Positions 9,255-15,027 of a stretch of DNA of 36,209 bases are shown here, piece after piece. Within the stretch, counting starts at the first letter, position 1. Each line of letters begins with the position of its first letter. Made by a program: the position numbers and the translations under genes. Source of the stretch: Candidatus Dormiibacterota bacterium (GTDB taxonomy: Bacteria; Chloroflexota; Dormibacteria; Aeolococcales; Aeolococcaceae); the NCBI GenBank assembly GCA_036495095.1, contig DASXNK010000146.1:1-36209 (forward strand). Direction: 5' to 3'. The notes below the pieces were generated by a model. That model ran no database searches. It saw only the letters and a list, made by a program, of their open reading frames with translations, and was not told the origin of the DNA.

Positions 9255-9281
9255 TGCTGGGGCCGAATCCTATCCCGCCGG

Positions 9282-9353
9282 AGCCGGCGCGGGGATTCGA
9301 ACCCCGGACCTGCTGTTTACAAAACAGTTGCTCTGCCACTGAGCTACGCCGGC
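9282..9353 (-). tRNA. tRNA-Thr (anticodon TGT)
   Basis: The minus strand folds as acceptor GCCGGCG/CGCCGGC, D arm GCTC/GAGC, anticodon stem ACTGT/ACAGC with loop TTTGTAA (anticodon TGT), and T arm CGGGG/CCCCG with TTCGAAT. It is 72 bases with discriminator T. One A-C mismatch closes the top of the anticodon stem. CCA is not encoded. It complements the GGT isoacceptor at 4149-4220. Confidence 0.95.
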
Positions 9354-9432: not shown

Positions 9433-11661
<2,229 letters not shown>

Positions 11662-11765: not shown

Positions 11766-13106
11766 ATGAGCGTCATCTTTCACGGCGAGCAGTTCGCGGG
11801 CTACCGGATCATCGAGCTGATCGGCTGGAGCGGGCTGGCCACCGTCTATCACGCCCACGACCCCGTCCACGGTCGCGCCGTGGCCCTCAAGATCCTCGAT
11901 CGGCGCCCGGACGAGCTCTCCTGGCAGAGACTCGTCCGCGAGTCGGCGACCGCCGCCGGCCTCCACCACCCCCACATCGTCCCCGTCCACGAGACCGGTG
12001 AGGCGGAGGGCCGCCGCTTCATCGCGATGCGGTACGTGCCCGGCGGCGACCTCGAAGCCCTGCTCGCCGGCGGCCGGCAGCTCGATACCGACCGGGTCGT
12101 GGCCCTGCTGACCGAGGTGGCCGGCGCCCTCGACGCCGCCCACACCCGCGGCCTGGTCCACGGCGACGTCAGGCCCGCCAACATCCTCGTCGAGACCGCC
12201 GGCGGCACCGAGCACGCCCAGCTCGCCGGCTTCGGTGGCGTCTGGATCCAGGACGCGGGGGCGACCTCGACCGAGTACCTGGCCCCCGAGCAGATCGGCG
12301 GCGGCGCCGTCGACGCCCGCACCGACGTGTACGCGCTCGGCGCCGTCCTGCACCGCTGCCTCGCCGCCCCGGCTCCGTTCTCGGCCGGCCTCGACGAGGT
12401 GGTCGGGCGTGCCCTGGCCCCGCGGACCGAGGACCGCTATCCCACCGCCGGCGCCCTCCTCGCCGCCGTGGGCCAGGCGCTCGGCGACCCCGCCTACCGC
12501 GACACCGTGGCCACGACCCTCCGGGAGGCGGCGGCTCACCCGCGCCGGCCGCGGCCACGGACGCCCCTGCTGGTGGCCGCGCTCGCCGCCATCGTCCTGG
12601 GCGCCGCGGGGGGTCTCGCCCTCAGCCTCCACGGCCACGACGCCACCGTTCCCGCGGCGGCCGGCACCCCGGGGGTGGCCGCCGTCGCCCCCGCGCCGTC
12701 CCCGGCGCCCTCCACCCTGCCTGGGTCCACCGCCACGGCCGTCCCGACCCCCTCCCCCAGCCCCGACGCCACCGCGGCCGGCCCGCCGGCCGGCCCGGCA
12801 CCGGCTCCGCCCCAGGTCCCCGTCGCCGCGGTGAGCACGGCCGCCGCGAGTGGCGGCCTCTTCCGCGAGACCGTGAGCAACACCGGCCAGACCGTGGTCG
12901 TCGCCGGCGCGAGCAGCCTCTCCAGCACCGCCGCGTTCACGATCGTCAGCGACGGCTGCGCCGGCGCCCACCTCCCGCCCGGCGCCGGCTGCGTGATCAC
13001 GGTTCGCTTCCAGCCGCACGGCCCCGGCGACTACACCACCGTCCTCAGCGTCCCGATCACCGGCGCCCAGCCGGTCACGTTCACCCTGCGCGGGCACCGG
13101 GCGTGA
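11766..13106 (+). CDS. membrane-anchored Ser/Thr protein kinase-like protein (probable pseudokinase) with ASH-like C-terminus
   Basis: The protein has 446 residues. Residues 10-260 are a PknB-type kinase fold. Lys42 (VALKIL), Glu59, the catalytic-loop Asp134 and Asn139 in HGDVRPANIL, and LAPEQ are present. The DFG motif reads GFG (residues 155-157), so the metal-binding Asp is missing. The glycine-rich loop is also degenerate (IGWSGLATVY). Weak or absent kinase activity is therefore likely. A transmembrane helix lies at about 265-288, then a Pro/Ala-rich linker to about 365. The extracytoplasmic end (about 375-446: RETVSNTGQTVVVAG, AAFTIVSDGCAG, VRFQPHGPGDY) resembles an ASH/choice-of-anchor-D type beta domain, also present in the next gene. 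AGGA lies close to the ATG. It probably links cell-surface events to a cytoplasmic docking module. Confidence 0.8.
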   Translation: MSVIFHGEQFAGYRIIELIGWSGLATVYHAHDPVHGRAVALKILDRRPDELSWQRLVRESATAAGLHHPHIVPVHETGEAEGRRFIAMRYVPGGDLEALLAGGRQLDTDRVVALLTEVAGALDAAHTRGLVHGDVRPANILVETAGGTEHAQLAGFGGVWIQDAGATSTEYLAPEQIGGGAVDARTDVYALGAVLHRCLAAPAPFSAGLDEVVGRALAPRTEDRYPTAGALLAAVGQALGDPAYRDTVATTLREAAAHPRRPRPRTPLLVAALAAIVLGAAGGLALSLHGHDATVPAAAGTPGVAAVAPAPSPAPSTLPGSTATAVPTPSPSPDATAAGPPAGPAPAPPQVPVAAVSTAAASGGLFRETVSNTGQTVVVAGASSLSSTAAFTIVSDGCAGAHLPPGAGCVITVRFQPHGPGDYTTVLSVPITGAQPVTFTLRGHRA

Positions 13107-13265
13107 ACCCCTGGGGCACCGAACATCCGTCCGTCGAGCTTCACCCGTCTGCAACTCCACACGCTCGGACAGCAGCGGCAACAACTGGACGGCGTTGTGG
13201 TACAGGCTGTGAATATGCCTTTCCCACAAGGGTTTTCTCGGTGCCGTAGCCGTCACCTGCGTCAT
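13107..13265 (-). pseudogene. possible remnant of an unidentified gene (N-terminal part)
   Basis: From an ATG at 13265 the minus strand reads a protein-like N-terminus (PLWERHIHSLYHNAVQLL, then PLLSERVELQTGEARR) before running into the antisense of the pseudokinase gene. The codons (CAT, ATT, AAA, GAA) and lower GC differ from chance antisense frames here. No family is recognised and no ribosome site is clear. It may be a truncated gene left by a rearrangement, or chance. Confidence 0.25.
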
Positions 13266-13281
13266 TTACTGAGAGCTGAAC
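13107..13281. other. intergenic region between the pseudokinase and the DUF4214 protein
   Basis: No plus-strand gene is present. The segment 13131-13270 is less GC-rich than its surroundings and holds the minus-strand relic described separately. No terminator with a T-run was seen after the pseudokinase gene. Confidence 0.4.
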
Positions 13282-13311
13282 TTGCCGTCGGGACGGCACC
13301 CGGGGTACGCT
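13282..13311 (+). promoter_or_regulatory. promoter of the DUF4214 protein gene
   Basis: TTGCCG (13282-13287) and TACGCT (13306-13311) are 18 bases apart. The same -10 and spacer occur in the radA promoter. The predicted leader of about 60 bases (13318-13377) includes complementary CTCGC/GCGAG segments and ends in GAAAGGGG before the ATG. The TTGCCG lies inside a small hairpin (TGCCGT/ACGGCA). Confidence 0.5.
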
Positions 13312-13377
13312 ACCCGTCCGCTCGCTGGAACCTGGGGGGCAGGGACCGAGGCTGGCGAGTCTGAAAGGGGTTCGTCC

Positions 13378-15027
13378 ATGAGGAGGACGAGCGGGGAGGG
13401 CAGCGACCGCGCACCGGTCGGGATCGAGGCCGGAGCCAGTGCCGGCCGGGGCATCCTCGGCGGGTGGGGCGGCCGGCTGACCATCTGCGCGTTCATGGTG
13501 AGCGCCGGCCTGGTGGCCGGGGTGACGCTGCACAGCTGGCAGCCGGAGTTCGCCCGCTCGCCCTACTACAGCCTGCCCTACAGTGCCGCGACCGCCCCTC
13601 CCGCCGGCGACTCCCGGCCGCTGCCCGACGCCGTGCCCGTGCCGCTCGCCCAGCCGCAGCCGCCCCCGGCACCGGCGCCCCCTCCGCCCACCGCCTCCGA
13701 TTCCTCGCCGCCGGTGACCGGAAGCGTCGATCGCGGCGGCAGCGCCCATCGCGCCGGGCAGCCGGTGCAGCCGATGAACCGGCCGGCGCAGATCCTCGGG
13801 CTCACCCCCGGGTCGGTGGCCTTCGACCCCCAGCCGGTGGGCAGCTCGGCGGCGGCGCGCACCGTGACCGTGGCCAGCACCGGCAGCGCGCCGCTGCGGG
13901 TCAGGGGCGTGTCCCTCGCGGGCGGCAACGCCAGCGCCTTCGTGGTGGTCGCCGACAAGTGCTCGGGGGTCACCCTGGCGCCCGGCGCCTCGTGCCCGGT
14001 GTCGGTCAGCTTCGCCCCCGACGCCGACGGCAGCCGCAGCGCCACCCTGACCATCGACGGCGACGGCGCCGGCCCGGCCAGCAGCGCCCTGACCGGGGTG
14101 GCGACCGACGCCCCGATCACCGCCACCGGGCTGCCCGTCGACTGCGGGCAGACCACGGCCACCCGCTGTGCGGTGAACGCGATGTACCAGCAGCTGCTCG
14201 GCCGCCCCGTGGACGACCCGGCGCTGCAGGGCTACGCCGGCCAGCTCGACGCCGGGCAGACCACCCGGCAGAACGTGGCCGTGGCCGTCCAGAACAGCGA
14301 CGAGTGGCGCACCCGCACCATCACCCTGCTCTTCAAGGCGCTGCTGGGACGGGCCCCCGACCCCGGCAGCCTCGGCTACTTCGTGCCCCAGCTGCGCTCC
14401 AACACCCTCGAGCAGGTCACCGCCAACATCGCCGCCTCGCAGGAGTACTACGCCCGCGCCGGCGGCAGCAACGACGGGTTCGTCTCCGCCCTCTACCACG
14501 ACCTCCTGCACCACGCCGCCGATCCCACCGGGAAGGCCGGATGGATGGACCAGCTCAACCGCGGCGCCACCCGGGCCTCGGTGGCGGGGAGCATCCGCCG
14601 CTCCGCCGAGGCGCAGGGACTGGTCGTGCAGGCCGCCACCAAGCTGCTGCTCGGCCGCGCCGCGACCGGGCCCGAGCAGACCAACCTGGCCAACGCCATG
14701 GTCAACGGGCTCAGCTTCCAGGCGATGCAGGGCTCGCTGATCCAGACCGACGAGTACCTCGCGCAGGTGGCCCCGCTGGCGCTGACCGACGTCGCGGTGG
14801 CGAGCTTCATCGACGGCGATCCCAAGGGCACCGCCAGCCAGTTCACCGTCACCGTCGACTGGGGCGACGGCTCCCAGCCGAGCGCGGCGGTGGTGAAGAA
14901 GGGCAAAAGCGGCTTCACCGTGACCGGCTCCCACACCTACGCGGCGCACCGGTCCTGGACGGTCACCGTCCACATCGCCGACTCCGGCGGCTCGCAGGCG
15001 CAGACCACCAGCACCGTGGTGGTCTGA
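13378..15027 (+). CDS. surface protein with ASH-like, DUF4214 repeat and PKD-like domains
   Basis: The protein has 549 residues. A transmembrane or uncleaved signal segment (RLTICAFMVSAGLVAGVTL, about 33-51) is followed by a Pro-rich linker (about 84-112). A choice-of-anchor-D/ASH-like domain spans about 138-232 (LTPGSVAFDPQPVGSS, VSFAPDADGS). Four DUF4214-like repeats follow at about 255-460, starting AMYQQLLGRPVDD, LLFKALLGRAPDP, ALYHDLLHHAADP and ATKLLLGRAATG. A PKD-like domain ends the protein (FTVTVDWGDGS, GSHTYAAHRSWTVTV). DUF4214 repeats occur in secreted and S-layer-like proteins, often in glycan contexts. GAAAGGGG supports the ATG at 13378. It follows the pseudokinase on the same strand and shares its ASH-type domain, so the two may act together at the envelope; this is inference. 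Confidence 0.85.
   Translation: MRRTSGEGSDRAPVGIEAGASAGRGILGGWGGRLTICAFMVSAGLVAGVTLHSWQPEFARSPYYSLPYSAATAPPAGDSRPLPDAVPVPLAQPQPPPAPAPPPPTASDSSPPVTGSVDRGGSAHRAGQPVQPMNRPAQILGLTPGSVAFDPQPVGSSAAARTVTVASTGSAPLRVRGVSLAGGNASAFVVVADKCSGVTLAPGASCPVSVSFAPDADGSRSATLTIDGDGAGPASSALTGVATDAPITATGLPVDCGQTTATRCAVNAMYQQLLGRPVDDPALQGYAGQLDAGQTTRQNVAVAVQNSDEWRTRTITLLFKALLGRAPDPGSLGYFVPQLRSNTLEQVTANIAASQEYYARAGGSNDGFVSALYHDLLHHAADPTGKAGWMDQLNRGATRASVAGSIRRSAEAQGLVVQAATKLLLGRAATGPEQTNLANAMVNGLSFQAMQGSLIQTDEYLAQVAPLALTDVAVASFIDGDPKGTASQFTVTVDWGDGSQPSAAVVKKGKSGFTVTGSHTYAAHRSWTVTVHIADSGGSQAQTTSTVVV
15001..15026 (+). terminator. perfect 10-base stem over the end of the DUF4214 gene
   Basis: CAGACCACCA (15001-15010) and TGGTGGTCTG (15017-15026) pair perfectly around GCACCG. 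The 3' arm includes the first bases of the TGA stop. No T-run follows. Termination or 3'-end protection is the likely role. Confidence 0.5.

Follow-up and report, generated by a model that had tools for sequence, protein, structure and literature searches.

The gene at 11766–13106 encodes a receptor pseudokinase restricted to a single genus. With a probability of roughly 0.6, we read it as a descendant of the genus's own active kinases that now serves as a non-catalytic scaffold or modulator, lying beside a DUF4214 surface-protein gene that is a separate neighbor brought there by rearrangement. The window, by which we mean the whole stretch of 36,209 nucleotides analyzed here, comes from the 4.4 Mb metagenome-assembled genome of a soil bacterium (G000), in which it is contig C146. 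Two same-genus relatives were available for comparison, G001 and G002, the latter a sister species (Chloroflexi bacterium isolate CF_96 in GenBank).

A Membrane Protein with a Degenerate Kinase Domain

The features of the pseudokinase gene are as follows:

11766–13106, forward strand: receptor-like Ser/Thr pseudokinase gene, 446 residues (Pfam Pkinase; same-genus ortholog 56%–57% identical)
11802–12485, forward strand: kinase fold, residues 13–240, with K42, D134, and N139 kept and HGD at the HRD position (alignment, model)
12228–12236, forward strand: GFG replacing DFG, residues 155–157 (sequence, alignment)
12381–12389, forward strand: junction, residues 206–208, where ~30 residues including helix αG are missing (alignment, model)
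12567–12623, forward strand: transmembrane segment, residues 268–286 (hydropathy 2.48)
12852–13094, forward strand: ASH-type outer domain with conserved Cys398/Cys409 (profile matches, ortholog alignment, ASH tree)

Pfam matches the Pkinase family over residues 13–207 (E = 5e-27), and the predicted structure of the kinase domain (pLDDT mostly >90) has a Hanks-type Ser/Thr kinase fold, with PknI, PknA, and PknB as the nearest solved folds (Z 27–30). An earlier note, made from the sequence alone, had described a degenerate membrane kinase that keeps Lys42, Asp134, and Asn139 but has GFG in place of DFG and a broken glycine loop. The residues are as it described them: G155-F156-G157 occupies the DFG position, and the glycine loop reads GWSGLATVY, with one Gly replaced. 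The αC Glu59 is also retained in the alignment. The note had missed a C-lobe deletion of ~30 residues. In the model, αF (184–199) leads directly into the next helix (207–216), and the intervening residues, helix αG among them, are missing from both known orthologs.

The protein crosses the membrane once; a Pro/Ala-rich linker follows, and the C terminus forms an ASH-like domain that contains a Cys pair. Matches to ASH/HYDIN profiles are weak (E = 5e-4 to 7e-3) and fall under the curated cut-offs, with 20.5 bits against the 45 set for ASH/choice-of-anchor-D, and the ASH part of the model is of low confidence; the domain nonetheless groups with the other ASH domains of the genome. No PASTA repeats were matched in the protein, and NF033483 covers its kinase part only, at 171 of the 450 bits needed.

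Ancestry and Selection

A contig scan of genomes found one full-length relative, the ortholog in G002, so that the pseudokinase is confined to two of the 110 genomes of the class. The ortholog has the same ASH outer domain, but reads HGG for HRD and DVG for DFG and has Val for the αC Glu. Catalytic competence calls for the Lys, the HRD Asp, and the DFG Asp together; the window copy is without the DFG Asp and the ortholog without the HRD Asp. In both, the ~30-residue gap removes αG and with it a substrate-docking segment that is present in three active paralogs of the genus and in most of 14 comparison kinases. The earlier note had held that an intact DFG in a homologue would count against its reading. 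This turned out to be half the case, as the ortholog keeps the DFG Asp but has lost the HRD Asp, and a kinase degenerate at different catalytic sites in two species strengthens the original description. Judged by its sequence, the protein is a pseudokinase, on evidence that exceeds one substitution in one assembly. Most telling is that the two species share a deletion but lost different catalytic residues besides, which suggests that their ancestor could already do without catalysis.

Both orthologs retain Lys42 and Asn139, which would leave room for nucleotide binding or residual activity. An ATP-binding switch, or a kinase still weakly active despite the missing DFG Asp, could draw on Lys42, Asp134, Asn139, and αC Glu59, all kept in the window copy, and some kinases without canonical residues do bind ATP (PMC12599244). 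We consider it improbable, given that the ortholog lacks the HRD Asp and the αC Glu, that both copies lack αG and part of the substrate-binding segment, and that the glycine loop is altered.

In the kinase tree, both pseudokinases fall among the active kinases encoded on contigs C175, C79, and C21 of the genus (support 96/90), on long branches. These are also the nearest relatives by sequence (46%–53%) and share the layout of the pseudokinase. They differ in having HRD, DFG, and αG intact and in their outer domains, one of which ends in a DUF4214 unit.

Kinase-domain dN/dS is 0.45 for the pseudokinase; two active paralogs compared between the same two species give 0.166 and 0.167. For the linker (0.92) and the ASH domain (0.83), constraint is little or not measurable, which fits relaxed selection. 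Indels between the two orthologs are multiples of three throughout, and in a simulation of neutral drift over that distance ~8% of runs per lineage stayed stop-free. Taken together, the open frame, the in-frame gaps, the dN/dS values, and the simulation indicate that the kinase fold is under weakened but real constraint, a comparison drawn from the only two orthologs known, one of them from a 67% complete genome. The same figures bear on the possibility that the gene is a decaying duplicate heading for loss, without present function. Long branches, dN/dS of 0.45–0.92, losses of catalytic residues that differ between the species, and the occurrence in so few genomes of the class would all agree with decay. 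Yet the frame is open in both species with every gap in frame, kinase-domain dN lies well under dS, the Cys pair and the transmembrane segment are conserved, and each species has an intact gene at a different locus. Decay is thus an explanation that we take seriously but think unlikely.

The Neighboring DUF4214 Gene

The next gene downstream, on the same strand, comprises the following features:

13245–13377, forward strand: conserved promoter and leader (three-species alignment)
13378–15027, forward strand: membrane-anchored surface protein, 549 residues, a neighbor for which partnership is not supported (profiles, conserved start, topology)
13792–14115, forward strand: ASH/choice-of-anchor-D domain (NF012200)
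14158–14769, forward strand: four DUF4214 helical repeats (Pfam; model; phycobilisome-linker-like fold)
14782–15018, forward strand: C-terminal Ig/PKD-like beta domain (weak Pfam match; model, fold matches)

The four DUF4214-like repeats and PKD-like domain ascribed to this protein are borne out. DUF4214 matches at 6e-27 (93.9 bits; cut-off 23.2), and the model has four helical repeats (261–464) followed by a C-terminal beta sandwich, for which the PKD match is weak (0.13). The choice-of-anchor-D profile matches at 2.8e-19 (69.6 bits; cut-off 45), and an N-terminal membrane anchor lies at residues 34–52. In fold comparison the repeats resemble phycobilisome linker domains (Z as high as 10.9 across 113 residues), a score that helical repeats can reach by chance, although the match to the Pfam PBS linker model likewise exceeds the cut-off. 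Foldseek gave one lead only, an N-terminal domain by which RsaA, an S-layer protein, binds LPS (E = 9e-4, low TM-score), and sequence searches of the PDB with the protein gave nothing significant. DUF4214 is a likely surface-anchoring domain (PMC12780176). G000 encodes 14 DUF4214 proteins and any DUF4214 is found in just 9 of the 110 genomes of the class, an expansion at the level of the genus.

Translation starts at ATG 13378, where the start and ribosome-binding region are conserved in three species. TTG 13282 was considered as a start and rejected, as the same species conserve a promoter here, in which this TTG belongs to the −35-like hexamer (TTGCCG 13282–13287, N18, TACGCT 13306–13311). 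The promoter was assigned by conservation; simple sigma-70 and terminator scans returned nothing. The leader holds a hairpin with arms at 13321–13328 and 13352–13359 and compensatory changes in the arms. Rfam has no match to this intergenic region, and no further copy of the leader motif was found in the three genomes. Upstream of the promoter and leader, conservation among the three species ends.

Are the Two Genes a Pair?

Two further features lie upstream of the pseudokinase:

9280–9353, reverse strand: tRNA-Thr(tgt), the flank of the DUF4214 locus conserved in all three species (synteny)
9433–11661, reverse strand: tex-like gene, flanked by tRNA-Thr and the pseudokinase and unique to this genome among 32 family genomes (family genome search)

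The earlier note had proposed a dedicated envelope-sensing pair, with conserved adjacency of the two genes as its test. Adjacency is absent in both same-genus relatives, so the pseudokinase and the DUF4214 gene are not supported as a dedicated pair. Both relatives, whose contigs are short, carry the DUF4214 gene in a yacP/tRNA-Thr framework, with its own conserved promoter and leader and no kinase beside it. The order in G002 is rlmB, yacP, the DUF4214 gene, a peroxiredoxin-like ORF, tRNA-Thr(tgt), signal peptidase, a sodN-like gene, tRNA-Tyr, and tRNA-Thr(ggt). In G001, tRNA-Thr lies ~700 bases from the DUF4214 gene. The window shares the framework of G002, but here the pseudokinase and tex genes come between tRNA-Thr(tgt) and the DUF4214 gene, and a LuxR-type gene lies on the far side of that tRNA. 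The G002 pseudokinase is on a separate contig, flanked by tRNA-Leu and a methyltransferase gene, without a DUF4214 gene beside it. As the two genes occur in different places in the relatives, the surface-protein gene looks like an accidental neighbor.

The gene at 9433–11661 we take to be tex from its sequence and S1 domain. A search of the other 31 family genomes did not find it; the query recovers itself, there being no other positive control in the family. Its absence from those genomes and its position beside a tRNA-Thr gene make it a likely acquisition. In G001, a probable tyrosine-recombinase gene (L090:8131-8970, reverse strand) is found near the tRNA-Thr of the DUF4214 locus, which suggests the tRNA as an integration site.

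The proposal that the surface protein and the pseudokinase recognize each other through like ASH domains is not without attractions. The genes are same-strand neighbors, both products are membrane-anchored with an ASH-type domain, within a small protein set these domains match each other (5e-9 to 8e-10), and the genome encodes another receptor kinase that has a DUF4214 unit. By chance, ~0.06 adjacent pairs would be expected from 13 separate DUF4214 genes and at least nine kinase genes among ~4,200 genes, a figure that is rough and, though low, applies to a single case picked after the fact, so that adjacency is weak evidence. Against it stand the missing adjacency in both relatives, by which the idea is already largely refuted, the DUF4214 gene's own conserved promoter and leader, and the placement of the ASH domains in different clades. 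We regard such a pair as very improbable.

The ASH resemblance that the earlier note saw between the two proteins holds as broad homology, but the pseudokinase domain has nearer relatives in two other membrane proteins. G000 was found to encode six proteins with a total of eight ASH-type stretches. In a tree of 115 columns, with domain boundaries set by us, both kinase ASH domains form a clade with the ASH domains of a predicted helix-turn-helix membrane protein (C26) and of a second membrane protein (C79:32782-32970), with support of 99/97; the neighbor's domain and its orthologs are separate from this clade. Pair scores are mixed, the window kinase domain scoring slightly best with the neighbor's family and that of the ortholog with C26. 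By sequence, then, the likeness is real and gives no sign of a special relation. The neighbor's ASH domain as the source of the kinase's was rejected by the tree.

The C26 protein (L126:4567-5562, forward strand), which carries this near relative of the pseudokinase ASH domain, has a helix-turn-helix part, a hydrophobic segment, a Pro-rich linker, and a C-terminal ASH domain, a RodZ-like layout. One speculative and rather doubtful idea is that the genus swaps one outer-ASH subfamily, as an envelope sensor, among different cytosolic heads (the pseudokinase and the C26 and C79 proteins). If so, the pseudokinase would belong to a modular set of receptors instead of partnering the DUF4214 protein.

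Comparison with Known Systems and a Possible Role

The closest solved fold is that of Mycobacterium tuberculosis PknI (PDB 5m06–5m09, 5xka; Z ~29, 39%–40% identity over 228 residues). Both proteins are of the single-pass receptor type. The PknI structure has reportedly been described as pseudokinase-like, with a short activation segment; we know of no ASH outer domain in PknI. Compared with it, the window protein is without the DFG Asp and αG.

The pseudokinase domain of MviN (ActPs3) is, like the window protein, a membrane-tethered inactive kinase domain; in an actinobacterium it acts as a scaffold phosphorylated by an active receptor kinase (PMC12599244), a precedent for the workability of a membrane scaffold or modulator role. 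It differs in lacking the β3 Lys and all three motifs, where the window protein keeps Lys42, Asp134, and Asn139, and in belonging to a larger protein that peptidoglycan synthesis requires (PMC12599244). About 60% of ActPs1 domains resemble the window protein in being without αG, but all three of their catalytic residues are replaced and they often carry a PQQ-type domain, not ASH (PMC12599244). ActPs1, ActPs2, and ActPs3 have the β3 Lys replaced and all motifs degraded; both orthologs here have Lys42, in VALK, which sets them apart. The Leu33-type contact of back-to-back PknB dimers is present in the active paralogs, replaced by His in the window pseudokinase, and deleted in the ortholog. This speaks against simple pairing of the MviN/PknB type, and partnering would probably use another surface.

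Most likely, we infer, the protein scaffolds or modulates the active receptor kinases of the genus at the membrane. The gene arose by duplication from those Ser/Thr kinases and retained their architecture of cytosolic kinase fold, one membrane pass, and Pro/Ala linker, with a small outer ASH domain that may read the envelope. Peptide phosphorylation would have been lost with the deletion of αG and the adjoining segment and the change in HRD; further loss then took the DFG Asp in the window lineage, or the HRD Asp and αC Glu in the sister species, and would have left non-catalytic work at the membrane. The DUF4214 protein would be separate and independently transcribed, a neighbor through rearrangement next to the tRNA-Thr gene.

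Implications

DUF4214-repeat predicted surface proteins, with the repeats proposed as anchors, have been reported from segmented filamentous bacteria (PMC12780176) and Halomonas (PMC11970703); their partner domains differ from those of the window surface protein. In G000, an active receptor kinase (L030:6408-9212, reverse strand; C79:20407-23211) combines with a SARP-like part (Trans_reg_C and BTAD), a transmembrane segment, an outer region, and a C-terminal DUF4214 unit. Ortholog pieces (L056:2764-5378, reverse strand) place the fusion in two species. The DUF4214 unit scores 21.7 and 23.5 bits, around the cut-off of 23.2, and a gene for a PP2C-like phosphatase adjoins the fusion gene. This protein is a firmer link between kinase and DUF4214 than the adjacency in the window, and a better starting point for DUF4214 function. 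Adjacency and a shared domain in one genome are weak evidence for a system. What is added is a lineage-specific membrane pseudokinase that keeps the ATP-anchoring Lys, has lost the substrate-docking helix, and has lost different catalytic residues in two species, which makes it a clean case in which to study what is left for a receptor kinase to do once it no longer catalyzes.
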